Of a stretch of DNA of 63,207 nt, positions 2,975 through 55,493 are shown in pieces (the stretch's first letter is position 1; each line of letters begins with the position of its first letter). Made by a program: the position numbers and the translations under genes. The notes beneath the pieces were generated by a model. That model was not told where the DNA came from, searched no databases, and saw nothing but the letters and a program-made list of their open reading frames with translations. Origin of the DNA: a virus; IMG/VR virus record IMGVR_UViG_3300019458_000036, positions 1 to 63,207 of that record. One strand, written 5' to 3'.

Positions 2975-4110
2975 CCCGCCACCAGATGAACGGCCATCGT
3001 CGGAGTCGTAGCTCCGCCCACTTTGCGCCTGAGCCACGCCAGCGCCGCCCCGTCAAAAACACGAGTCAAATTAAAAGCCGTGTTGATGTTATCTGTAAGC
3101 CCCGCCGCGTAGGCCACAGGTTGCACTGCCCAAGCTAGCGGGTGACCGATCACGAAGTTGATCACGCCCGTGGCCACGGCGGCCGAGCACCGCATTCTCG
3201 CCAAGTCCATTACCCCGGTGTCTCCACTGGCAAGCGGCATGAACCACTGCTCGCCGGGGTTGTCTAAGCGGCGCACGGCAGCGTTTGCGTTGCCTGTAAC
3301 CACCGGCAATGTCTGGCTGTCCGTTCCCGCCTGGTTGCGATAGAGGCACTCGTTACCGCCTGCTACTCCCCAGTTGTGCGCGGTGTTGGCGAGGGCCGTA
3401 CCGCCTACCTCGGGAAACATGAAGTTCCCGCCGGCATAGTCCCAGTCAGCGGGTGTCGAGGACTGGTAGCGTGTCGGAACTCCGGTAACCGACTCGTTGG
3501 CAGTGGAGTTCATGGTCTTGTCGACCTGAAAGAGACGGTCATAACAGAGCCACGGTGAGTTAATCCCGCTGTCTAAAACCATGGCCGTAACGATGAAACG
3601 AAAGTCCGGGCTACAGTCGGCCATCGCAGGTGCGCCGATCGTTGCCTGAGTCGGGGCTTCGCCTCCCGGGGCCGCGGCCGCGTTAGCCCCGGCCGTGGGA
3701 TGCGGGCCGATGCCCCACAGGCTAAACCAGACCCCCGCAGTTCCGCTTGTCTCGACTTTTTCCCAGTAGAGATTCAAGGACTTGTTACCCTGCGTGGCCT
3801 CAGAAATTAGATCGGAGAGCGAGGTGAAGCCCGCGTTAGCGACACCGAATTGTCGCCGGGCTGCACGGCGCGCAACTCTCGTGACCCAGTTCCACGCCCA
3901 TTCGGTGGCCGAGAGAAACTGCCCTCCGTTGATCCGGCCGTGAAAGTCACCGCCAGCATCCGCCCAGACCGCTCCGTGAACATCGCCTAGCGCGATAGGC
4001 GGCCCGTACCAGTCGCGCATCGCCGCAGAGATAGCCTCAACCCCTGGCGTGCCCAACCACCGCTCCAGCCGATCACTGTGAGTGGAGCGGTGAAACCCGA
4101 TGTTCGACAC
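2971..4110 (-). CDS. large virion-type protein, paralogue 1 of 3
   Basis: 379 residues. I take the GTG at 4110 (VSNIGFHRSTHSDRLERW), directly after the TAA of the gene upstream (TAAAGTG); a longer open frame to 4149 would overlap that gene. Carries the shared blocks WYGPPIA, NAGF-SLSDLISEATQG, YDRLFQVDKTMNS, LYRNQAGTDS and FVIGHPLAW. Three such copies in a row imply two tandem duplications. A structural role is inferred from position only. Confidence 0.85.
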   Translation of the reverse strand: MSNIGFHRSTHSDRLERWLGTPGVEAISAAMRDWYGPPIALGDVHGAVWADAGGDFHGRINGGQFLSATEWAWNWVTRVARRAARRQFGVANAGFTSLSDLISEATQGNKSLNLYWEKVETSGTAGVWFSLWGIGPHPTAGANAAAAPGGEAPTQATIGAPAMADCSPDFRFIVTAMVLDSGINSPWLCYDRLFQVDKTMNSTANESVTGVPTRYQSSTPADWDYAGGNFMFPEVGGTALANTAHNWGVAGGNECLYRNQAGTDSQTLPVVTGNANAAVRRLDNPGEQWFMPLASGDTGVMDLARMRCSAAVATGVINFVIGHPLAWAVQPVAYAAGLTDNINTAFNLTRVFDGAALAWLRRKVGGATTPTMAVHLVAG

Positions 4111-7534: not shown

Positions 7535-7771
7535 TCAGTCCCAGACCAGCCCCAAGCCGTCGACGAGCTCGCGCAACTTTGCCCTCGCCGCGTCTACCTG
7601 CACCGTGTCGATGTCCTCATACTTTTGCAGAGCGCGCAGCCAGTTGTCCATGTCTTGGTACGCGCTTCTCCACTTCCACGCCGAGATGGCTTCGATCGCG
7701 TCATCCGCCGTCTCAAACCCGATCCAGTAGTGGTATGGCCCGGGTCGCGGTGCCTTGTACACCTTGCTCAC
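7535..7771 (-). CDS. small hypothetical protein
   Basis: 78 residues from GTG at 7771 (VSKVYKAPRPGPYHYWIGFE); GGGGAG lies just upstream and the GTG overlaps the stop of the zinc-ribbon gene (GTGA). A longer open frame to 7843 exists but would run deep into that gene. Contains ETADDAIEAISAWKWRSAYQ, helical and Trp-rich, and ends LVDGLGLVWD. No domain recognised. Confidence 0.65.
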   Translation of the reverse strand: MSKVYKAPRPGPYHYWIGFETADDAIEAISAWKWRSAYQDMDNWLRALQKYEDIDTVQVDAARAKLRELVDGLGLVWD

Positions 7772-7983
7772 GGAAAAGCTCCCCGCCAAACGACGTTGAG
7801 CCAGTCCGGCAAGAGCGGGTCCCCTGTCCAAGTCGTGTTGCACGAGGTACAGACATGAGATGACTCAGGCGAGATGTACGGAAGTGGAGCTCCGCAAGTG
7901 CAGACAACGTCCCACGCGCGCTCCCGCTCCTCCTCGATGAGCTGCTCCTCGGTCCTCAGGCCATCGCGGGTTATCAGAACCAT
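7768..7983 (-). CDS. small zinc-ribbon protein
   Basis: 71 residues from MVLITRDGLRTEEQLIEEER; the frame is open upstream, but the ATG at 7983 falls right after the upstream gene and fits the spacing. Two cysteine pairs (CTCGAPLP and CTSCNTTW) spaced as a zinc ribbon. Acidic helix before the ribbon. A nucleic acid or protein contact role is typical of such folds; target unknown. Confidence 0.7.
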   Translation of the reverse strand: MVLITRDGLRTEEQLIEEERERAWDVVCTCGAPLPYISPESSHVCTSCNTTWTGDPLLPDWLNVVWRGAFP

Positions 7984-7999
7984 CCTTGCTCCATGTAGC

Positions 8000-9307
8000 T
8001 CACCGGTTCCAAGGAATATCGGTCCACCCGTCACCCGCCAGGCCGGCGATCGAGTGAAAGTTAGTGGCGCACTGCCCGGCACGCTGTCCGAGGCACGCGT
8101 CGAAGTGGGCCTGTATCCTGGCCGGGTCGCATGTCCGGAGCCCGGCGCAATTGTCCCCGAGCTCGTTGAAGGCAACCGTCTCGCCGAAGTACACGAAGCC
8201 GCCGTTGGCCCGGATGACGGCATCGAGAAAGCCGCCGTCGTTCACTCCGGGGTCAAACGGGCGGCCCTTGGTGTTGCGGCAATAATGAAAGTTAGCTGGC
8301 CAGGCGCTGATGTTCTTAAACCGGTACTCGTACGTAAAGTCGCCCGGGCAGATGCTGTCGTCGGTGGTCACGTAGCGGACGCCGTTTCCGCGAAACATGT
8401 CGACGTCGATTCGGACATCGTTCTTACCGTAGCAGTGAGGCCCCCAGCCCCGCCCTCGGCACTGATCCATCTCGTTGATCACCTCGACGGCCACGTTGCG
8501 ATACTCGCGAACCACTCCCGCAACCTTTGCCGCCCACTCGTGCTGCTGCGAGACCGGCACGGGACCCTTCAGCGTGCAGTTGGCCACGACGATCACCTGC
8601 GCTCCGGGAATCCTGGCGACGGTGTCGAGAACATGATTGAGCCTATCGAGGTCCCTTGGCACCCGAAGGTATGGCCAGTCGCCGCCCCAGAACTCGGTCT
8701 CCGCACACAGGCGCCGGGTGTTGATACCGCGCGAGAGCATCAGCTGCGTTGACTCGTAGATCTGCCGGTCATCGTGGCTCTCGTCGAGAGTAGCGAATGC
8801 CGAAAAGGACGCCAGCCGGTCCCAGCTGAAGTCCGCGTCTACCCGCGGCCCGAGCCACGGGTCTACGGGGATCGTGGTGGTCGTGGTTACAGGCGTCGGG
8901 CCGGTAGGCCCGGTGTTCTCGCCGCACGCCGCTGCAATCAACACGCAAAAAGGGACAATCAACGTAACTTTTCGCAAACGCACTGCTACTCCTCTCGTCC
9001 CATGACCAGAAACCGCCGAAGGGCCGCCGAGCTTGCTTTCCTCGCGGAGTCGATGTTGCCGATCCAATACAGCCTTGAACTCCCGACTCAGCGTCTCGGA
9101 AGGCTTCTCGAATCCGCGGCCCGCATCGAGAAGTTTCTGGTCGATTATGCGAGCCTGGTCGGCAAGCATGGCGCTTTCATCGTTGAACTCCTTTGGCGTC
9201 AAAGATCCGGGATCTTCCACGCTCACCTTGAAAGCCCGCGACTCGCGCGCGGATGCCTCCGACGCATGCCCACTCGCGATGCCCGATGGCTTGAATGCGC
9301 CGCCCAT
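8000..9307 (-). CDS. fused ORF: N-terminal unknown part plus lipoprotein-like TIM-barrel glycosidase
   Basis: 435 codons open from ATG 9307, which overlaps the upstream stop (TAATG). Residues 1-108 are polar (FKVSVEDPGSLTPKEFNDES). Residues 109-130 read like a bacterial lipoprotein signal (VRLRKVTLIVPFCVLIAAAC then a Gly/Thr/Pro linker). The rest resembles a glycoside hydrolase barrel: LCAETEFWGGDWPYLRVP, VAVEVINEMDQ (Asn-Glu typical of GH clan A acid/base) and FVYFGETVAFNE (possible nucleophile). A GTG at 8983 preceded by GAGGAG can start the lipoprotein alone, giving 327 residues, so two products from one frame are possible. Confidence 0.6.
   Translation of the reverse strand: MGGAFKPSGIASGHASEASARESRAFKVSVEDPGSLTPKEFNDESAMLADQARIIDQKLLDAGRGFEKPSETLSREFKAVLDRQHRLREESKLGGPSAVSGHGTRGVAVRLRKVTLIVPFCVLIAAACGENTGPTGPTPVTTTTTIPVDPWLGPRVDADFSWDRLASFSAFATLDESHDDRQIYESTQLMLSRGINTRRLCAETEFWGGDWPYLRVPRDLDRLNHVLDTVARIPGAQVIVVANCTLKGPVPVSQQHEWAAKVAGVVREYRNVAVEVINEMDQCRGRGWGPHCYGKNDVRIDVDMFRGNGVRYVTTDDSICPGDFTYEYRFKNISAWPANFHYCRNTKGRPFDPGVNDGGFLDAVIRANGGFVYFGETVAFNELGDNCAGLRTCDPARIQAHFDACLGQRAGQCATNFHSIAGLAGDGWTDIPWNR
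8981..8997 (-). promoter_or_regulatory. internal ribosome site and GTG start for the lipoprotein-glycosidase part
   Basis: On the minus strand AGAGGAG is followed by a GTG (8983-8981) at standard spacing. Translation from here would begin exactly with the signal-peptide segment VRLRKVTLIV, which argues that it is used. Confidence 0.5.
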
Positions 9308-9768
9308 TAACGAAACCTCCGAAAATATTTCACGTCCGTTTTAGGTACCGCAATTTTCACCGTCTTCTGACCCGAATCTCGCAATACTGCAAAACGATGC
9401 CTACCATCTGAGAATACCACTTGCTTGTTATCCCAGTGCGGGTGCACAGTCGGGGCCTCGATTTGTTCTCCCGGGTTTGATTTGAGCCAATCTATAAACT
9501 GCTCTCTACGATTGCCGATCTCGTTCTCACCGCTTGGGCTTACTCGATTGTCTTTCTCCCAAGCCGCATCCAATTTTCTCGGGTCTACTTCGACTAGCTC
9601 AAGATTCTCTGACTGCCGAGGTAGCTTGAATGAACGGCCTAGGCCGTAACGAACCTCGCTCGGTGTTTGGCCACCTCGGCTTCCGCGGCCGGTCGTCATG
9701 TCGGTAGGACGAGAAGCGCCCCCTAGGCTGCCGGTGTACTGATTCCCGTGGAACTGTCCATCGCCCAT
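9307..9768 (-). CDS. ParB/sulfiredoxin-fold-like protein with FHGNQY N-terminal motif
   Basis: 153 residues from ATG 9768 (MGDGQFHGNQYTGSLGG); the longer open frame to 10443 is only the shadow of TerL. The C-terminal half has SDGRHRFAVLRDSG, the signature loop of ParB/Srx-type nuclease-like domains, and ends DVKYFRRFR. The N-terminal FHGNQYT motif, also present in the small protein at 44851-45039, is one I recognise from the beginning of assorted phage proteins. Activity is not known; DNA cleavage or nucleotide-dependent modification are possible for this fold. Confidence 0.6.
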   Translation of the reverse strand: MGDGQFHGNQYTGSLGGASRPTDMTTGRGSRGGQTPSEVRYGLGRSFKLPRQSENLELVEVDPRKLDAAWEKDNRVSPSGENEIGNRREQFIDWLKSNPGEQIEAPTVHPHWDNKQVVFSDGRHRFAVLRDSGQKTVKIAVPKTDVKYFRRFR

Positions 9769-46115: not shown

Positions 46116-47111
46116 TTAGAAAGCCTCGAGCCCGGAGAATGCCTTCGGGAAGGACAGCACACGGATCAGCACTTCGGCATCGGCGCCGACCGTGCCGGAG
46201 CCCACTTGATCGAAATCCACGTTGAGTTCCGCGTTTGTCTTAGAGCCGTTGTTTTTCTGCCCGGTAAAGCAGCGATACTGATAAGTGGAGTCGGGGTTCG
46301 CCCCGCCGAGGTTGGCCGAGGCCGCAACCTGAGGCCGCGTGGAGTACATCGATGTGTAGGCTGAGCCGTCCCACTGGTTGACGTCCACGATCCAGGCTTG
46401 CGTTGTCGGCGCCGTCTTCGTCTTGAGTGTGACGTTGCGAACGATGAAGGGACGGCCATTGATGAACCTGAACTTGTCCGTCCCCGTGGACAAGTTGCCC
46501 GATGTCGGGAAATAGAGAACCCCTTCGGACACGTCTGGTTGCAGGAAAAACTGGGGCGGCACCGGACCCAGGACCAAACAGATTCCCGAGAAGGTCGCGT
46601 TACCCGCGCCGCCGCCGATGTTCGTCTCGAGGATGAAGTCGAGCTTCGTGGCCGACGCATCGATGGTCATCGTCTTCGTGAGCCACTCGAAGGAGCCGCC
46701 GCCCGTGTGGTAGCTGGTGTAGGTCGGCGTTACGCCATCATCCACGCCCACGCGGGCAAGCGAAGCCGTCGCTGTGTAGACCCAGACGCCCCAAGAGATA
46801 ACGCGCCCCTTGAGCCCGGGGTCGATGGCGGTCATCAATACCTTGGTAAGTTTCGACGTGGCCGAGCCCATAGTGATCTTTGCCGCCATGCCCGCGAACT
46901 TGTAGTTAGTGATATCGCGTGAGCACGATGCGCCGGTCCCGGAGAGGGTCCAGTCGGCCGGGGCCGCCGACGATCCCGCCGGCCAAATGACCGGGTAGGG
47001 GTCGTCCATCAGGTTCTTCCAGGACAGCGAGTCCAAGGACTGGAAGTTTCCCCGGACGGGCGCCGATGCGAGTGCCGCCGAAGCGGCCGGTGCTGTTCTA
47101 TCCCATGCCAT
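46116..47111 (-). CDS. tail fibre-like protein
   Basis: 331 residues. Start MAWDRTAPAASAALASAPVR then NFQSLDSL, a beginning seen in many phage tail-fibre or appendage proteins. Middle resembles a carbohydrate-binding jelly roll (GVWVYTATASLARVGVDDGV, FEWLTKTMTIDASATKLDFI). End is beta-rich (AEVLIRVLSFPKAFSGLEAF). Likely adsorption apparatus. Confidence 0.65.
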   Translation of the reverse strand: MAWDRTAPAASAALASAPVRGNFQSLDSLSWKNLMDDPYPVIWPAGSSAAPADWTLSGTGASCSRDITNYKFAGMAAKITMGSATSKLTKVLMTAIDPGLKGRVISWGVWVYTATASLARVGVDDGVTPTYTSYHTGGGSFEWLTKTMTIDASATKLDFILETNIGGGAGNATFSGICLVLGPVPPQFFLQPDVSEGVLYFPTSGNLSTGTDKFRFINGRPFIVRNVTLKTKTAPTTQAWIVDVNQWDGSAYTSMYSTRPQVAASANLGGANPDSTYQYRCFTGQKNNGSKTNAELNVDFDQVGSGTVGADAEVLIRVLSFPKAFSGLEAF

Positions 47112-47128
47112 GATTCACTCCTTTGACA

Positions 47129-48328
47129 CTATACCCCAACTCGAAACTCCTGTCTCGCCTGATGTTCTACTTTAGGCCCGGGCTTTAACCCCACGTACCG
47201 CTCAATCATCGCCCCTTGAAGTAACCCGGTCATCGAGGATTGCATCGATTGGCAGTAGCCCGGGAGCACCCGGAAGCGGTTCGCCGGGTCCGTTCCGTCG
47301 CTCCCCACGTAGCGACAGTGGCAACCACCGAAAGAGACGGGGTTGGCGACACAGTTTGAACAGCTGAAACCGGGCGGCTGGATCATCTGGTCGTTTCGGA
47401 TTCCCGACACGTCAGCAAGCCGCTCGAGGTCTATCACGGGATCGCGGTTCACGTCCCCTACCCGGTAGTGCAGGTCCGTCCCCGGCGCCCGGCCCGGCTC
47501 CAGAGTGGTGAAGGCCATCTCTTGACTCGGGTAGAGCCACCCCTCGGGCGTGAGGGCGAGCATGTGAAGGCCCGTGCCGCACGGCTGGTCGGGTTTCACG
47601 AGCTTGAGGAAAGCCTCGTCGAGCTTCGAGATCATGTTGGAGCTGAAAGGCGGTCTCTCGCCCCGACGCGACTGGATGGAGAGGCGCGCCACGTGGCGCA
47701 TGAAGACCTCGAGGGCGATGCGCTGCTCGCCGTTCCACTCCTTAAGCCAGTTGAGGTTGAAGTTAATCCTCGAGAAGCCTCTCTGGATCATCCAGTCGAG
47801 GTGGGCCGCTGTCGGCACGCGGTCCGGGTCGAGCTGCCACGCGATCTCGATGCCAGGGCGCCAGGCGAGGATGTCGTCGACGGGGATGTCCTGCCAGCTC
47901 GGCTTGCCGCCGTAGTAGGGGCGCGCGAGGTTGTGCAGTTCCGGCGGCCCGTCAAGGGAGAGGAGGATAGCGACGCGGTGGCGGTCGAGGATTTCCCTCG
48001 CGCGGGCATCGAGCATCGTGCCGTTAGTGGTGACGGACCACTGGAGCTCCTTGCCGGCGCTCTTGAATGCCGCGTCCCAGGTCGGCATCGCGCGCTCCAT
48101 CAGGTCGAGGTTTAGCAGCGGTTCGCCCCCGTACCAGACGCACCAGAGGCCACTCGCGGCCCAAGTCGATGCCCAGGGTAGGGCTTTTTCGAGAAGGGCG
48201 TCATCCATCATCTTTAACAGGCCCTTCTCTTTTTGCCAGCCCCACGCGTGACTTCCTTGATAGCAGTACGAGCAATTCAAGTTGCAAGTTCGCGTATTCA
48301 CGATCCAGAGAGTTTCGGTGGTGGCCAT
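47129..48328 (-). CDS. radical SAM/SPASM peptide-maturase-like enzyme
   Basis: 399 residues from ATG 48328, which overlaps the TAA of the tail-tip gene (TAATG), so the two are translationally coupled. Radical SAM cluster motif RTCNLNCSYCYQG; GGE motif CVWYGGEPLL; WSVTTNGTML; ILLSLDGPPELHNLARP as in anSME and RiPP maturases. C-terminal SPASM-type cysteines: QPCGTGLHMLAL, FSCSNCVANP, FGGCHCRYVG, PGYCQSM. These enzymes oxidise or cross-link cysteine-containing peptides. The Cys-rich tail of the upstream protein is the obvious substrate (inference). The open frame upstream of ATG is a shadow of that tail. Confidence 0.9.
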   Translation of the reverse strand: MATTETLWIVNTRTCNLNCSYCYQGSHAWGWQKEKGLLKMMDDALLEKALPWASTWAASGLWCVWYGGEPLLNLDLMERAMPTWDAAFKSAGKELQWSVTTNGTMLDARAREILDRHRVAILLSLDGPPELHNLARPYYGGKPSWQDIPVDDILAWRPGIEIAWQLDPDRVPTAAHLDWMIQRGFSRINFNLNWLKEWNGEQRIALEVFMRHVARLSIQSRRGERPPFSSNMISKLDEAFLKLVKPDQPCGTGLHMLALTPEGWLYPSQEMAFTTLEPGRAPGTDLHYRVGDVNRDPVIDLERLADVSGIRNDQMIQPPGFSCSNCVANPVSFGGCHCRYVGSDGTDPANRFRVLPGYCQSMQSSMTGLLQGAMIERYVGLKPGPKVEHQARQEFRVGV

Positions 48329-51300
48329 TACACCCGCTCCGAGACAGTCTGACAGTTCGACTGACAGGTTGACTGACAAGTCGATTGACAGGTATCTTGA
48401 CAACTGAGCTGACACGTCGCCTGCTTGCACGCCGTTGCTTGGCACGAGGTCTGACACACGGCGTTGCAGTCTACTTGAGCACTCATCTGACAAGCCTGTT
48501 GACAAGCAAGCTGGCAGTTTCCCTGACAGCTGAGCTCGCAGGTTGACTGGCAGTTGATCTGACAAGTTGTCTGGCACGAGCTCTGACAAGTCGTCTGACA
48601 GCCCGCGCCCTGGCAAGTCTGGCACGTGCTCTGACAGGTTGTCTGACAGTTGATCTGGCAGGTCGTCTGACACCCGCGCTGACAAGTCGTCTGGCAGGAT
48701 TGCTCGCAGGTGATCTGACAGGCCGCCTCGCAGTTGCCTTGGCACGATGTTTGACAGGTGTTCTGACACACCGCCTCGCAGCCGACCTGACAGGATGTTT
48801 GGCAGAACTGCTGACACTCCACGATGCACGCCGCCGAAGCAACGGTCACGCGATCATCCGTTGCCTCTACCTCAACCGTACCGCCAAGAGGATTCTTGCT
48901 CAACGAGATGATGCGAAAGATGTCATTCGCTAGAACTCCTCCGCGCGCAAACCCTCGCTGCCTCGAGAGACGAAACTTGTCGCCCACCTCGAGCTTCATC
49001 AACTTCGCGCCGAGCACCGTGAGCTTGATCTTGCGGGCCGCGGTCTTCGCGAGCTCGAGGAGCCGCCCCGATGCGGTAATGGCGTTAGTCGCGTTCTTCA
49101 AGTAGGTCTCGAACTCCCGGATATCCGGTCGGCCGAGCCGCACCGTAACGGACTCGTCAGTTGACTCCCGGGCCTCGAAGATCCCCGTGTCCGGGTCCTG
49201 ATCGTGCTTCACGCGTACGGTGGTGAAGACCTCGGTGTTGGAGGCACCCGAGTCGAACTTCGCGATATCCGAGTCCCGAACATCGAGGATGTTGTCCGGC
49301 ACATCGCCAACGTAGACATGGTAGAAGACCTTGCCCTCGCCGTTGACGATGATGTTGGCGATGTTCGAGTACTCCAGCCGGTCGAAGATCTCCTTCGTCG
49401 TGGTTGACTCGTTCATGTAGATCGCCAATGACTCAGGAGCTCGCTCGCGGCTAAACTCAAAAGAGGTCTCGTCAATCACCTCTGGGCTCTTGTGCATGTA
49501 GCTCACGAGAAGTGTCCGGCAGATGTCGGCCCCGATCTCGATGAGCGAGTTGCTCGACCCCGTGAATGTGCCCGCATCGTCGTCCTTGAAACCTTGGGCA
49601 TCGACTCGCAAGATGTGATTCTTGTCCACGTCGGAAAAGGTCGCGTTGTCGCCCTCGTAGCTTAGGGCTCCGGTCTTATCAGCCGAGAGGTTGTAACCCA
49701 GTGTCTTATAGCCCGCGATGGCCGCATTGGTCCCAGTCTTGACGAGGAGCTGTAGGGTGCCGGAGATCTTGCTGATGGTGAATTTGTGAGTCGTGGTAGA
49801 TAGCGAGCACGCGATCGCGGCACCCGACGCTGCCGTCATCTTGTCCGCCACCTCGGCCGCGATGGCCGGGCCGGTGTAGACTCCGACCGTAAGGGTAGCC
49901 ACCAACGAGCTGGCGCCGATGTTGAAGTCCAAGCGACGGTTTGTCTCGTCAATCGTATAAGGCCCAACGTCGGTGACGACGGAGAATTGCCCGTTAGCTA
50001 GGTCTTGAGTAAAGTCACTAGACAAGAGGGTTGCCGCCAAGTCCGTTCGATTATTAGTCGCATCCTGATCCGAGGGGAACGCAAGAATCTGGTCGATCGC
50101 TAGAATGCCTGCCGGTGACTCGGTACAGTCGGCAATCTCATACGTCCCAAAACTCGTTGTATCACTGGCATCAATTCGCGTCGGATCGATATGCTCCTTC
50201 ACGCCGAAGAAGAGCGGGCGAACTCGGCCCTGTTTTCGGGTGTCGAGGTTCCCGAAGCTCACGTCATCGTAGACGCGCGTCGGAAGCTTGAGGTGAAAGT
50301 AGACCCGCTGATCTTGCAGGTCGAAGCGAGCTTCCTGATCCGTGAAGCCTATCGATTGAACCAGCCCGGTGAATCCGCGAAACCAGTCATCTAGAAGAAT
50401 CTCCTGCAGGTCTCCGCTGAACTGCCCGCCCACGTTAACCAACACCTCTTGGTTCATCCACTCGAGTTCTGCCGCCAACCGTTCAAGCAAGCCATCGTGG
50501 TTCAACAGACTCACGCTACCCGAGCCGATTGACTTGCCGCCAAAGAAAAGGTCATTGCTCCCAGTCTGGATGGCTGGCACCGAGGCCGCGGTGAGCCTGG
50601 GCTCGTACCAGTTGAATCGATAGATGCGCTGCATCTGGAGTCCATCAAAGATGGTGGAACCAATGGCACCCCCGGCGGCAATGGCCCCGAACTGAAACTC
50701 GTGCTCGGTATCGAAGGCAATAAAGTCGAAGACGAACCTGCGCCACTCTGAGCCAGTCCGGTCAAGATTAACCCAATCTGGCGTTGAAAGCAGCGTTCGC
50801 CCGCGAGTATATTCAATGGATACTGTCCTGGCAGTATTACCGACCCGGAATCTGGCATCAATGTCTCCAGATGTCTTATACCAGCCGCTGGCCCTGTACT
50901 TCTTACCGACGACGAGCCCGTCGATCGTCAGCGAGATATCCCTGGTCTGGCCAGAGAGGACATCGAGCTCGACGGCGGATGATCCGTCTCTGACATCCGA
51001 TGTATTCTGAATCACGGATTCGGTGAGCGGATCCCAGATAACTGGGCCGTCCCACAGGGTCGCGCTATCATCCCAAAATGGAATGCCGGACCCGCCCATG
51101 CCCCAGCCTTCGGGACCGAGCCCGTCATCGAGCCAATCCTCGAAGCTCCCAACACCGTCTAAAAGATCTCGGCCGAGTACAGGATGGACCTGCTGGTCGC
51201 CCAGAGATGTCCGGCCGGCCGCCGAGAAGTAGAATCCCAGCGCCGCCACCGAGGAGGTTTCGCCCGGGTCGGTTTCGTCATCCAAGTGGGCGATGAGCAC

Positions 51301-51684
51301 CGAGAACTGGTCCCAGTAGATTGTAGGGCTCGCATCCCAGAAGCCAAGCGGATCATCCCACGTAGTGACACCCTGACCAAACTCCTCATCAGGATCGTAG
51401 AAGAACGTACCGGGAGTTGAAACACACTCGGAGATGGACTGGGCACGCTCGAGCCCGGTGTCGAGGAGGGTCCGCACCGATACTACGTCCCGGCGAATTC
51501 CGTCAAAGACGAATTCGAAAGGAATGGAATAGGCGTTGCCGGAGTAAGATGCCCACTGATCAGCGTCAAGAGTAGAGACGGGCCTCAGCTCTACAAAGAC
51601 ATCTTTAAAACTGCCTGTTTGCTCGCAAAGCTCTGTAAAATCTCTGAGACCGGAGCGCAAGCCGAGGACACCGTGTCCGATCAA
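48328..51684 (-). CDS. tail tip/baseplate hub-like protein with C-terminal cysteine-tetrad domain
   Basis: 1118 residues from a TTG at 51684 that overlaps the upstream TGA (TTGA). N-terminal half has a beta domain (GKKYRASGWYKTSGDIDARF) and hub-like parts (KLPTRVYDDVSFGN, NRRLDFNIGASSLVATLTVG); a domain shared with the distal tail protein lies near residues 610-700. Near 850-945 is a hub-like segment (RLLELAKTAARKIKLTVLGA, LEVGDKFRLSRQRGF). From about residue 953 to 1111, 39 cysteines recur every four residues, mostly as C-Q-x-x. The end is CQTVSERV. Followed by the radical SAM gene. Tail-tip identity is inferred from order and size. Confidence 0.8.
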   Translation of the reverse strand: MIGHGVLGLRSGLRDFTELCEQTGSFKDVFVELRPVSTLDADQWASYSGNAYSIPFEFVFDGIRRDVVSVRTLLDTGLERAQSISECVSTPGTFFYDPDEEFGQGVTTWDDPLGFWDASPTIYWDQFSVLIAHLDDETDPGETSSVAALGFYFSAAGRTSLGDQQVHPVLGRDLLDGVGSFEDWLDDGLGPEGWGMGGSGIPFWDDSATLWDGPVIWDPLTESVIQNTSDVRDGSSAVELDVLSGQTRDISLTIDGLVVGKKYRASGWYKTSGDIDARFRVGNTARTVSIEYTRGRTLLSTPDWVNLDRTGSEWRRFVFDFIAFDTEHEFQFGAIAAGGAIGSTIFDGLQMQRIYRFNWYEPRLTAASVPAIQTGSNDLFFGGKSIGSGSVSLLNHDGLLERLAAELEWMNQEVLVNVGGQFSGDLQEILLDDWFRGFTGLVQSIGFTDQEARFDLQDQRVYFHLKLPTRVYDDVSFGNLDTRKQGRVRPLFFGVKEHIDPTRIDASDTTSFGTYEIADCTESPAGILAIDQILAFPSDQDATNNRTDLAATLLSSDFTQDLANGQFSVVTDVGPYTIDETNRRLDFNIGASSLVATLTVGVYTGPAIAAEVADKMTAASGAAIACSLSTTTHKFTISKISGTLQLLVKTGTNAAIAGYKTLGYNLSADKTGALSYEGDNATFSDVDKNHILRVDAQGFKDDDAGTFTGSSNSLIEIGADICRTLLVSYMHKSPEVIDETSFEFSRERAPESLAIYMNESTTTKEIFDRLEYSNIANIIVNGEGKVFYHVYVGDVPDNILDVRDSDIAKFDSGASNTEVFTTVRVKHDQDPDTGIFEARESTDESVTVRLGRPDIREFETYLKNATNAITASGRLLELAKTAARKIKLTVLGAKLMKLEVGDKFRLSRQRGFARGGVLANDIFRIISLSKNPLGGTVEVEATDDRVTVASAACIVECQQFCQTSCQVGCEAVCQNTCQTSCQGNCEAACQITCEQSCQTTCQRGCQTTCQINCQTTCQSTCQTCQGAGCQTTCQSSCQTTCQINCQSTCELSCQGNCQLACQQACQMSAQVDCNAVCQTSCQATACKQATCQLSCQDTCQSTCQSTCQSNCQTVSERV
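48331..48828 (-). repeat. tandem 12-bp codon repeats for C-(Q/E)-x-x tetrads
   Basis: About 40 imperfect 12-bp units; the encoded Cys spacing is 4 throughout, with a few slips (C-Q-T-C, C-Q-G-A-G-C, CQMSAQVDC). Because of the repeat, the other reading frames are also open here. Confidence 0.95.
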
Positions 51685-52790
51685 GCCAGCACCGTTTGAA
51701 AAGCAAGCCCCAGCTCCCAGTAGTTCGGCGGCACGCGGCTCCACTTGGGGTTTACTTTCAGGATGAGATAGCGCACGAACGAGGTATCGTCGTCGGGGTC
51801 AAAGGCAAAAAAGAACGGGCGTCCTCGATGCGTGAAGTCCAAGAACACGTCGAAGTCGATCTTCTCGGCAGGCGTGAGCGCTGGCCACTTCAGTCCCCAC
51901 TCCGTTCGGGTAGGCTTCTCGTTGTGGAAAGAGGCTCCGCGATCAGCGAGGCCGACCTCGGAGAGCTCTGCCCGGTCCTCGCTCCACTCGATGGCGAAGT
52001 CTATCCCCGGCTCGATAAACCCTGACACATGCAAGAGCCCGGCTTCGGTAAACCCGTCCGGGTTTTGCACGTCCGTGAAGACATGTCTCCAGAACGCGTA
52101 GGTTTGCATCGAGGTGAAAAAGTTGTAGCGCAGGGGCAGAGGACTCGTGACCGAGATGCTCTGAGTGTCCTCGAAGGGCGGCGCGGCCCAGGACGCGGAG
52201 GAGTTGGCCTGAGTCTTGACGGTGCCCGCCGCGAGTAAATTGTGGTTGAGGGCCAGTGAGACCTTGCCGTCGGCCGCGGACTGTAGCTCAACCTGGACCC
52301 ACTCCCGCGAGTGATAGGCAACGTTATCAGAAGTATAGGTGGTACTGCCTGACTTGTTGGTTTCCGTGAAACCGAGGTCAAGGGCCACTGACCTCGCGAG
52401 GTTGGCCCCGTCGAGGAACTTCAGCACCACCGCGGCGCTGCCGGTTGCCCGAGTGATCGTGAACTTGAAGTCATCGGGGTCATAGGTTACGGTGTAAGTG
52501 TTGGTGACACCTGAGGCCGCATTCATCTGCGCCTGCACGTGAGCGGCGAAGTCGGCGCCCGTCTCGTAGTTCCCGACCGTGAGCAACGCCACTCGAGCGT
52601 TGCCGTCTTCGGTGAAGTCGCATCTATCGTTAAAATTTGCGGAAACGTTCCATCCCAACTTGGAGCGCCATGTTGCAGACGGCGATGGATCTCTGAGCCG
52701 ACGAACGGGAAAGGAGAGATCTTGTGACGAGGCAGTCACCAGCGCCCCCGTGAATCCTGCGAAGGGCTGGTAAATTATGCGACCCGGCAT
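51681..52790 (-). CDS. distal tail-like protein
   Basis: 369 residues. MPGRIIYQPFAGFTGALVTA start; a domain near 65-160 (VALLTVGNYETGADFAAHVQ, TYDPDDF-FTITRATG) is shared with the tail-tip protein; the C-terminus (SEVGLADRGASFHNEKPTRT, FFFAFDPDDDTSFVRYLILK, NYWELGLAFQTVLA) has the look of a tail protein of the distal tail type. Between tape measure and tip, as in lambda-like order. Confidence 0.7.
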   Translation of the reverse strand: MPGRIIYQPFAGFTGALVTASSQDLSFPVRRLRDPSPSATWRSKLGWNVSANFNDRCDFTEDGNARVALLTVGNYETGADFAAHVQAQMNAASGVTNTYTVTYDPDDFKFTITRATGSAAVVLKFLDGANLARSVALDLGFTETNKSGSTTYTSDNVAYHSREWVQVELQSAADGKVSLALNHNLLAAGTVKTQANSSASWAAPPFEDTQSISVTSPLPLRYNFFTSMQTYAFWRHVFTDVQNPDGFTEAGLLHVSGFIEPGIDFAIEWSEDRAELSEVGLADRGASFHNEKPTRTEWGLKWPALTPAEKIDFDVFLDFTHRGRPFFFAFDPDDDTSFVRYLILKVNPKWSRVPPNYWELGLAFQTVLA

Positions 52791-53332
52791 GAAAGTCTCT
52801 CCAACTGTCGCGTGAGCCGCGCTATCTGCACTTCGGGACGAGCAAGGGCGGATTTCAGTGCAGCCCTATGTCTTTCTTTCACTTCGGGACGAGCAAGGGC
52901 GGCTTTTATTGCGGCCCTGTGTCTTTCCTTCACGTCGGGGCAAGCAAAGGCGGCTTTCACTGCGGCGTTGCGCTTTGCTCTCACCTCTGGTATCGGCGGG
53001 TCGCATCCTTCCCCGCCCAGAGTTCCGTTTGTGAGCCGGTGCCCCGCTTCTCGGTATGCCGCGATGGCACGTCGCTCCGTAGACGCGGTCATGCGGTCTT
53101 CAACAATAGCGAGCACTTTCAGCTCAGGCATGCAACCTTCGAGGATCACTTTGCGAAGCCAGTTGATTTTGTAAGAGTGTTCCGGACTGGTAGCGACCTC
53201 GCGAATGTGCCTGTCGAGGCGCCTTGTTGGGTTCTTTGCCTTGCCGATGTAGCGATAGTGCTTCGGTTCCGCAGGGTCAACGAGGGCATAGAGATAACTC
53301 CCTCGGGCGCAAGGAAAGTTTGAGAGAGTCAT
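52775..53332 (-). CDS. GIY-YIG homing endonuclease
   Basis: 185 residues from ATG 53332. GIY-YIG core: GSYLYALVDP, HYRYIGKAKNPTRRLDRHI, INWLRKVILEG, later Glu/Asn residues (STERRAIAAYREAGHRLTNG). C-terminal three near-identical 16-residue NUMOD3-like units (PEVKERHRAALKSALARPEV). A free-standing homing gene lodged between tape measure and distal tail genes; not needed for the virion. Confidence 0.85.
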   Translation of the reverse strand: MTLSNFPCARGSYLYALVDPAEPKHYRYIGKAKNPTRRLDRHIREVATSPEHSYKINWLRKVILEGCMPELKVLAIVEDRMTASTERRAIAAYREAGHRLTNGTLGGEGCDPPIPEVRAKRNAAVKAAFACPDVKERHRAAIKAALARPEVKERHRAALKSALARPEVQIARLTRQLERLSCRVA

Positions 53333-53333
53333 C

Positions 53334-55493
53334 TTAAAATTCTCGCAACGCGATGGTATGGGTTCGAATGGCGCCACGCTTACTTTCTCTTTCCATCCAC
53401 GTTGCCAATACGCGGCCATCGAGTACGATATTATTTTGCAATATCGGCTTAGATGAACCCTCGCCTGCTCCCGCGCTCATCCGAGCCTGAAGCTGAACGG
53501 CGATCTCGTTGGCGAGGAGGTGGCCCGAACCTTTAGGAATGACGGCCTCATTGCCGTGAAGCATTGCCGGTGACTCAGTTCCGAAATTCATAAAGTCCAA
53601 GCCCGGCGTGCCCGAAGCAAACTTCAGCGCCTTGATCTGGCTCACGACGCCCCAACCCATCGCAGCCACTTGAGCAAAGGCAACTATACTTGCTGGCCAA
53701 GGTGACGCTAGGGCATACGTTAAAGCTGTGAGAACGTTAATAGTCGATTGCGCAATGGCCGCTATTTGACCTATTTTGCCCATCGAAGAAATCGTCGAGA
53801 GGGTCGATGCGAGGATCTCCGTGTTGGACATCTTCTTCTGCAAAGCAGTCTGCTTGTCGGCTTCACGGACAGCGGCCTCGTATGCTTCCCATCTCGCTTG
53901 AAGTTGCTCTGCCGTTTCTGTACCCTTTTCCTGCGCAGACTCGAACTCAGCCCTCAACCTATCGGCCGTGATCTGCGACTCGGTGCGGGTAAACGTGCCC
54001 CAGCGTCTAAAGCTCTCAGTCATCAGCTTATTTTGCTCGTAGACTAGCGAGCCGACGCCCGTATATTCGGTTTTCCACGGCTCCAGCCCCTCGGTCTTTA
54101 CCCGGTTAAAGTCGTCAATGAATTCCTGCGCCCAGATCTCCTGCGCCGCGGCGCTGGCCTGGGCTTTCGAGATGCCGAGAACTGTCTCGTCGTTCAGGGA
54201 CTTGAGGTTGTCCTTTGCTTTCTTGATCCTTTCCGCGTGTAGAGCAGCACCAGCCGCCTTCTGGAAGCCGATGTCCATCTCCTTAAACTTGGCCAGCGAC
54301 ATCTCCATGAAGTTCGCGAGCTCTTGTTCCTTCCTTGAAGCTTCATTTGTGGCGAGGGTCATCCTGACCCGTGCTGCGGCACTCGGCCCCGCAGCTAAGG
54401 TAAGCGCCGCGGTCTTCTCTGCCACTTTAGCTTGTGCTTCACCATAGGAGCGCATTTCAGCGGCCGACACCGCCACGGCGTCCGCGACCTCTTTTTCCTT
54501 CTGAGTGACTTTTTCAGTGGCCCTAGCCATGGCCTCAGAGTGTGAAACTCCGAGCATCATGAGCTCAGATGCTTCTCTCTTGATCTTCAGCTCACGCTCT
54601 AACTGAGAACCGGCTTCCTTGCTCGCGGCAACGAAGTTCACCAGTTGCCCCGTTGCTTCCGCCAGCCTACCGACAAAGGGGCCAAGTGCCTCGGCCAGTA
54701 AGCTCTTGCCCGATGCTTTCAGCGCATCCCAGTTGTCACCCAGCTCGTCGCCGGCTTTCAAGGTCTTTTCGGAAATTATAATGCCAAGGGCTTCGGCTTT
54801 TTCGGCGAGCGCCGCAAAGTCATTACGAATGAGCGGCAGCATCTGCATGCCGCCGCGACCAAACAACTGGATGGCGATAGCTGACTGCTTTGCCGGATCC
54901 TCGATGCGATTAAGAGCAGTTACGATTGCCGTGAACTGGTCTTCCGGCTTCATTGCCCGGAGATCGCTGAAGCTAAACCCGAGTTGCGCGATGGCTGCCT
55001 GAGTTGCCTTACTTGACTTACCGAGGCTAACCTCGAACCGGTTAACCGCCATAGTGGTACTCTCGAACGGAGCACCGGTCTGGTCGGCGGCAAACTTCAG
55101 CTTCTGAAGAAAATCAGTCGAGAGTCCCGTACGGTCACGCAGGCGAATCATCTCGTCGCCCATGCGAACCACCGAGGCTACCCCCGAGCCAATGGCAACG
55201 CTGGCTACGCCCGCGGCGATGCCAAGCGGCCCCAAGCCGCTCATCAAAGTAGACGCCGAGCTAGCCATCGAGTTCATGGCGGCCCCCGCTTGGGCTACCG
55301 GGCCACCCATGGCGCCTAAAACTCCTGAGACCTCGCCAACTTTACCTTTAAAGTCCCCGAGGGGCGCAGCACCCGCCTCGGCAGCCTGGCCGACCTGTCT
55401 TACCGCGCCAGCAGCCCGGTCAGCTCCGGCCTCGAGGTCCGCCGTGTCCGCGGTAAACCTGACTAAAACTTCGCCTAAGTCGAGGGCCGCCAT
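53334..55493 (-). CDS. tail tape measure protein
   Basis: 719 residues. Begins LGEVLVRFTADTADLEAGAD as tape measures do; hydrophobic Gly/Ala segment (LMSGLGPLGIAAGVASVAIG), long helical region (KAGDELGDNWDALKASGKSL, ELKIKREASELMMLGVSHSE), membrane-like stretch (IAQSTINVLTALTYALASPW) and C-terminal GLDFMNFGTESPAMLHGNEA. Sets tail length, roughly 100 nm for a siphovirus of this size by family rule. Confidence 0.9.
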   Translation of the reverse strand: MAALDLGEVLVRFTADTADLEAGADRAAGAVRQVGQAAEAGAAPLGDFKGKVGEVSGVLGAMGGPVAQAGAAMNSMASSASTLMSGLGPLGIAAGVASVAIGSGVASVVRMGDEMIRLRDRTGLSTDFLQKLKFAADQTGAPFESTTMAVNRFEVSLGKSSKATQAAIAQLGFSFSDLRAMKPEDQFTAIVTALNRIEDPAKQSAIAIQLFGRGGMQMLPLIRNDFAALAEKAEALGIIISEKTLKAGDELGDNWDALKASGKSLLAEALGPFVGRLAEATGQLVNFVAASKEAGSQLERELKIKREASELMMLGVSHSEAMARATEKVTQKEKEVADAVAVSAAEMRSYGEAQAKVAEKTAALTLAAGPSAAARVRMTLATNEASRKEQELANFMEMSLAKFKEMDIGFQKAAGAALHAERIKKAKDNLKSLNDETVLGISKAQASAAAQEIWAQEFIDDFNRVKTEGLEPWKTEYTGVGSLVYEQNKLMTESFRRWGTFTRTESQITADRLRAEFESAQEKGTETAEQLQARWEAYEAAVREADKQTALQKKMSNTEILASTLSTISSMGKIGQIAAIAQSTINVLTALTYALASPWPASIVAFAQVAAMGWGVVSQIKALKFASGTPGLDFMNFGTESPAMLHGNEAVIPKGSGHLLANEIAVQLQARMSAGAGEGSSKPILQNNIVLDGRVLATWMERESKRGAIRTHTIALREF

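Follow-up and report, generated by a model that had tools for sequence, protein, structure and literature searches.

A cysteine array gene overlaps a radical SAM enzyme gene in a phage tail locus

The DNA analyzed here (the window, meaning the whole 63,207-base stretch) is IMG/VR record IMGVR_UViG_3300019458_000036, in which two overlapping genes encode a protein ending in a dense cysteine array and a radical S-adenosylmethionine (SAM) enzyme. Terminase, portal, major head protein, adaptor, and tape-measure genes were recognized and therefore the window comes from a tailed phage. The tape-measure gene is followed on the minus strand by two further genes, then by the gene of a putative tail-locus structural protein of 1138 residues with a GTG start (48328..51744), called the carrier below, and then by the gene of P0001, a 399-residue radical SAM/SPASM enzyme resembling peptide maturases (47129..48328). 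The carrier stop and the enzyme start overlap in the sequence TAATG (48326..48330).

The array consists of CXXX units, mainly C-[QE]-x-x (residues 973-1131; 48352..48828), and its 39 cysteines all lie within the last 166 residues of the carrier. Among the 38 spacings between neighboring cysteines, 33 are exactly four residues, three are five, one is three, and one is eight. The residue that follows is Q after 32 of the 39 cysteines and E after four (Q or E in 36/39). The 33 C-x-x-x-C pairs compare with a mean of 8.3 and a maximum of 17 in 2000 shuffles of the residues of the array itself. One break in register, C-Q-G-A-G-C (CxxxxC, residues 1044-1049; 48598..48615), is conserved in homologs. 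A first-pass annotation of the window had described a cysteine at nearly every fourth position, the overlap of the array-gene stop with the enzyme start, and a radical SAM/SPASM enzyme, and each of these descriptions agrees with the results given here. Its "tail-tip" label was kept in a weaker form. The carrier gave no Pfam, PHROG, or PDB match in family and profile searches and no tblastn match to phage records, and an AlphaFold model of its N-terminal 961 residues (three homologs) had a predicted local distance difference test score (pLDDT) of 31 and supports no claim. The carrier is thus probably a tail protein as judged by its position downstream of the tape-measure gene, by its relatives, and by analogy; the different array carriers in records L228 and L230 match the tail-protein family phrog_48.

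The array cysteines are conserved among diverged relatives

The same gene pair was found in two other viral records, L269 and L270, in which the enzymes are 69% and 55% identical to P0001 and the carrier homologs (P0004 and P0005) are 57% and 47% identical to the window carrier. The TAATG junction is identical in the three phages, and the register break is kept in all three carriers (CQGAGC, CQGAGC, and CEGGGC). The two homologous arrays contain 40 and 44 cysteines, of which 97-98% are followed by Q or E, and a fourth carrier, L289, likewise ends in an array before the contig terminates. Array size in close relatives is therefore nearly constant, at 39-44 cysteines. In the homolog alignment the array cysteines are kept in 95-100% of columns, against an identity of just 45-69% for the N-terminal carrier regions, and synonymous differences affect 31-50% of the conserved cysteine codons. 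Because the cysteines persist while the N-terminal parts diverge and the codons change, these comparisons point to selection on cysteine and not to recent repeat expansion; by this sequence evidence the array is old and maintained for its cysteines.

The predicted fold of P0001 is closest to a thioether-forming maturase

P0001 contains the motifs CNLNCSYC, GGEP, and LSLDGP plus C-terminal cysteine clusters, and it matches Pfam Radical_SAM (PF04055) with 45.3 bits, over the cut-off of 29.5. In a 16-sequence enzyme alignment the cysteines of the CX3CX2C cluster motif (C15-C19-C22) and the SPASM cysteines C250, C323, C326, C336, and C359 are invariant, and C338 is an extra cysteine of P0001. A 566-residue open reading frame was rejected as the enzyme gene because it continues the enzyme frame across the DNA of the array; translation probably begins at the ATG of TAATG, identical in the two relatives. 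The best NCBIfam model was PapB (NF047865; 122 bits), followed by nif11, quinohemoprotein, and other peptide maturases. The AlphaFold2 model of P0001 (pLDDT 81.4, predicted template modeling score 0.83) matched best, among solved structures, the SCIFF maturase CteB (5wgg; Z 32.3 over 336 residues, 3.0 A, 20% identity) and then anSME, ChlB, TigE, SuiB, and SkfB, and a profile search likewise ranked CteB first among solved structures (61 bits). As modeled, P0001 thus has the overall fold of thioether-forming CteB, although enzymes with one fold may catalyze different reactions. A scan with P0001 as a single protein gave no match; a two-row enzyme alignment did give relatives. Three array-associated radical SAM enzymes contain inteins (L273 4846-7218, near the cluster motif; L243 1-2310; L284 5404-7569).

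Arrays and enzymes co-occur

Pattern scans of viral contigs for CXXX repeats gave mostly low-complexity noise and about 15 records with real arrays, and the noise hits served as controls. A radical SAM gene (PF04055) was present in 13 of the 15 array records vs 2 of 50 control records (Fisher p = 6e-10), a comparison somewhat inflated because the 15 records were chosen by eye as non-repetitive and some were already known to have an enzyme-like open reading frame in the stretch. In most of the 13 records no more than about 1.5 kb separated the enzyme gene from the array. The converse test is free of that bias: among 20 viral loci found by enzyme alignment alone, 13 had an array within 6 kb. All scored arrays were on the same strand as the enzyme, and in L284 (2-4679) six consecutive array genes precede an intein-bearing radical SAM gene.

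A pattern scan of genome contigs, in which most of the listed matches were noise, gave at least six array loci that are apparently real, five of them with the enzyme adjoining. In four Clostridia metagenome-assembled genomes (L304, L314, L385, and L398) a radical SAM gene directly precedes a protein of 580-780 residues with an N-terminal C[QE]xx array, and L304 and L385 additionally match phrog_5107 (amidase). In a planctomycete metagenome-assembled genome (L307 3-3719), the C[QE]xx arrays of a 1239-residue open frame contain 94 cysteines, and the 8 kb examined included no related radical SAM gene.

Complete genomes of cultured jumbo phages gave a second comparison without that bias. Phages of the Cronobacter phage CR5 / Salmonella phage SPN3US group have two tandem array genes encoding proteins of 130-155 residues, and some have a third short one. 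In Salmonella, Erwinia, and Cronobacter jumbo phages (L264, L241, L265-L267, L431, and L432) these two to three CXXX genes lie between tail-fiber genes and two radical SAM genes. Most are unannotated: in SPN3US (NC_027402; L264 3085-3898, about 143.4-144.2 kb) they are SPN3US_0166 and one unannotated open reading frame at L264 3085-3483, followed by the radical SAM genes SPN3US_0164 and 0163. The SPN3US arrays adjoin the gene of virion protein gp167 and the baseplate/tail-fiber candidates gp168-gp170 (PMC5694885, PMC10052503). Among 15 complete phiKZ/SPN3US-like genomes sharing a homolog of gp167 (a tail-fiber gene), a TIGR04115-like enzyme (101-117 bits) was found in 7/7 array-bearing and 0/8 array-less genomes (Fisher p = 1.6e-4, not corrected for kinship). 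The eight include phiKZ and 201phi2-1, as well as Burkholderia phage SURPRISE13, which scored only 19 bits through a different radical SAM gene. Tail-fiber assembly genes occupy the slot in some of the relatives that lack arrays; in SURPRISE13 (L425 5160-6762) a cupin gene and the different radical SAM gene are at the tail-fiber position that holds arrays in SPN3US relatives. In the main text of the SPN3US studies searched neither gp163/gp164 enzyme mutants nor gp166 in virions was found. The absence of the array proteins from the SPN3US virion mass spectrometry reported there is uninformative, since the searches assumed fixed cysteine alkylation and tryptic sites are few, at least in the window array, where three Lys/Arg in 168 residues leave almost no tryptic peptides. 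Together with the lack of annotation of most SPN3US-type genes, this would explain why such proteins were overlooked.

The first-pass annotation had proposed in advance a co-occurrence search able to refute the coupling, and the coupling held in two independent designs and in the complete isolate genomes. By these sequence counts it is real and widespread.

Array class follows enzyme lineage across unrelated carriers

The arrays fall into two classes, C[QE]xx and C[GST]xx (the mixed array of L271 was counted with the latter). Mapped on an enzyme tree of 27 rows, the class switches a single time, at a branch with support 93/94; shuffles gave 9.3 changes on average, and none of 500 came that low, although the long branches L247, L257, and L386 are unsure in place and the shuffles leave kinship in. 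The carriers are diverse: window-type tail proteins, phrog_48 tail proteins located after baseplate wedge genes (L228 and L230), the small proteins of jumbo phages, and, in Clostridia genomes, large proteins that in some cases have lysozyme or fiber genes close by. The arrays are located in tail, baseplate, or tail-fiber loci. In record L107 (loci 3130-3975 and 7591-9525) the N-terminus of the array protein, MS[MI]TQGSYITAADFT, is common to a neighboring repetitive SHAEGxxTTASG fiber-like protein, as though one fiber could end in either an array or an adhesin. Because the class changes once on the enzyme tree though carriers differ, the array tracks the enzyme and not the carrier, as an enzyme-substrate pair predicts.

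Neighboring genes of the window

The remaining genes near the pair are also on the minus strand. The tape-measure gene (53334..55493) was recognized by PHROG tape-measure families (best 57 bits). Directly before the carrier gene is that of a 369-residue tail-module protein (51681..52790) matching phrog_8610 (52 bits), a family given no function, and directly after the enzyme gene is that of a 331-residue protein (46116..47111) with no Pfam, NCBIfam, or PHROG match. A 51-base tandem repeat of 2.7 copies (52829-52966) lies within a gene for a 214-residue protein (52775-53419) with a weak GIY-YIG match.

Discussion

We propose that a radical SAM/SPASM maturase cross-links the cysteine array of the adjoining tail protein, and we put the probability of this reading at about two in three. 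While virions assemble in the host cytoplasm, the enzyme would modify the tail protein whose gene immediately precedes its own, and would make many intramolecular thioether bonds from cysteine sulfur to a carbon of a nearby residue with the loss of 2 Da per bond. In the window class the leading acceptor candidate would be the Q or E after nearly every cysteine. The product would be a stiff C-terminal rod or fiber, resistant to proteases and reductants, on the tail tip, baseplate, or tail fiber. In our judgment (none of these gradings was computed), the comparisons make the array very probably the substrate of the enzyme and, given that, thioether formation the likely chemistry, whereas a mechanical or adhesive role, such as a stiffer or more stable tail tip, is offered tentatively. 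According to one report, PapB makes six Cys-to-Asp/Glu thioethers in one peptide and tolerates 0-6 residues between the partners (PMC9413430), and with such a reach bonds within a C[QE]xx array would be possible.

The enzyme could modify the array by epimerization, by C-C or C-O cross-links, or by another radical change between the cysteines. The SPASM fold spans many chemistries, including those of anSME, SuiB (C-C), EpeE (an epimerase), and ChlB, and since the two array classes differ at the residue after cysteine, acceptor chemistry may differ also. We nevertheless consider a non-thioether modification unlikely, as cysteine is by far the most conserved residue of the arrays and the nearest family (PapB) and fold (CteB) matches form thioethers. 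That the array is a disulfide-bonded or metal- or Fe-S-binding repeat, with the radical SAM gene serving something else, is quite improbable. Dense cysteines would suit such a role, and many radical SAM genes of phages CP220 (PMC2853527) and 332-Vera (PMC12390700) have no assigned role, CP220 being array-less. This explanation, however, leaves the presence of the enzyme in all array-bearing and no array-less jumbo-phage relatives, the tracking of array class with enzyme lineage, and the overlapping genes of three phages without a reason.

A third possibility is that the array is the core of a ribosomally synthesized and post-translationally modified peptide (RiPP), cut from the tail protein by a protease and released as a toxin, exclusion factor, or signal. 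Bacterial CXXX systems do have small precursors, an example being L409, which has a signal-like N-terminus and lies beside the enzyme, and the jumbo-phage array proteins are themselves short. However, no peptidase or exporter was recognized adjoining the pair in the window, other arrays are fused to recognized tail proteins (phrog_48) within tail-fiber/baseplate loci, and the window array lacks the short leader plus core form of a RiPP precursor, being the C-terminus of a 1138-residue protein. A free peptide is thus very improbable. Finally, low-complexity noise made up most of the raw matches from the collection scans, and the array could be such sequence beside an enzyme gene by coincidence. 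This is barely credible, as it is contradicted by the cysteine selection with synonymous change, the near-constant array size, all of the co-occurrence tests, and the match between class and lineage.

Several observations weigh against enzymatic cross-linking of the array. What the sequences provide is the array, the family and fold of the enzyme, the overlapping genes, the co-occurrence, and the class-lineage match; cross-linking, hardening, or metal loading is what we infer from them. P0001 scores far under the cut-offs of both PapB (122 of 340 bits) and TIGR04115 (65 of 350 bits), and the Y-P-C SPASM cysteine common in relatives is S268 in the window enzyme and is likewise Ser in its two close relatives. 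Most of the residues after the array cysteines are Gln, which is not among the PapB acceptors in the accessible text (PMC9413430), and the C[GST] class, which has no carboxylate to offer at that position, would need another acceptor, so that the two classes suggest more than one acceptor chemistry. Two array records, both fragments of about 9 kb, show no radical SAM gene. Conversely, phage radical SAM genes without arrays are present in L272, L281, L282, L285-L288, and Campylobacter phage CP220. CP220 was reported to have 11 radical SAM proteins (PMC2853527), yet its genome (L433) contains no CXXX array anywhere; phage radical SAM genes as such therefore do not imply an array system.

The first-pass annotation had held that no phage system of this kind was known to be described and had suggested that the maturase acts on a phage structural array. 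The latter proposal gains from the co-occurrence and from the class-lineage match. Its wording on chemistry is made more tentative here, and that on novelty is adjusted since the pairing of CXXX proteins with radical SAM enzymes was already defined in bacteria. In the computationally defined TIGR04115/TIGR04117 families of NCBIfam (CXXX-repeat radical SAM maturases and their targets), a SPASM-superfamily enzyme likewise lies beside a protein with cysteine at every fourth position, and in the window the 39-Cys array is directly upstream of the enzyme through TAATG. Two enzymes from phages do score above the TIGR04115 cut-off: L248 with 473 bits and L250 with 385 bits. The window system differs in that its array is C[QE]xx and not C[GST]xx and that its target forms the C-terminal end of a large protein of the tail locus and is not a small precursor like L409, a fecal contig protein with its signal-like N-terminus before the array that resembles the bacterial form. 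PapB is the best model for most C[QE]-class enzymes as well as P0001, but the window target, which belongs to a structural protein, consists mainly of C-Q-x-x and not of C-x3-D. CteB (5wgg, 5why) differs from P0001, which lacks the CteB N-terminal region (the alignment begins at CteB residue 92) and one SPASM cysteine. CP220/CPt10 and 332-Vera also have several radical SAM genes per phage, in 332-Vera among structural genes, but these were read as metabolic or unexplained (PMC2853527, PMC12390700). A literature search gave no earlier description of CXXX arrays in phages or tails, or of radical SAM modification of phage tails, a weak absence as subscription journals were poorly covered. The chemistry class was thus already foreseen, and virion tail proteins as its target appear to be the new part.

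More broadly, we lean slightly toward the view that tailed phages of several unrelated groups took up RiPP-type radical SAM maturases to staple cysteine arrays located on their tail tips, baseplates, and tail fibers. This reading could account for some of the otherwise puzzling radical SAM genes in phage genomes, and enzymes able to cross-link forty cysteines of a single protein would be of interest to peptide chemists. If true, radical SAM cross-linking of virion proteins would represent virus maturation of a new type, yielding a covalently stapled structural element, and the RiPP concept would reach beyond small secreted peptides to components of a large molecular machine.

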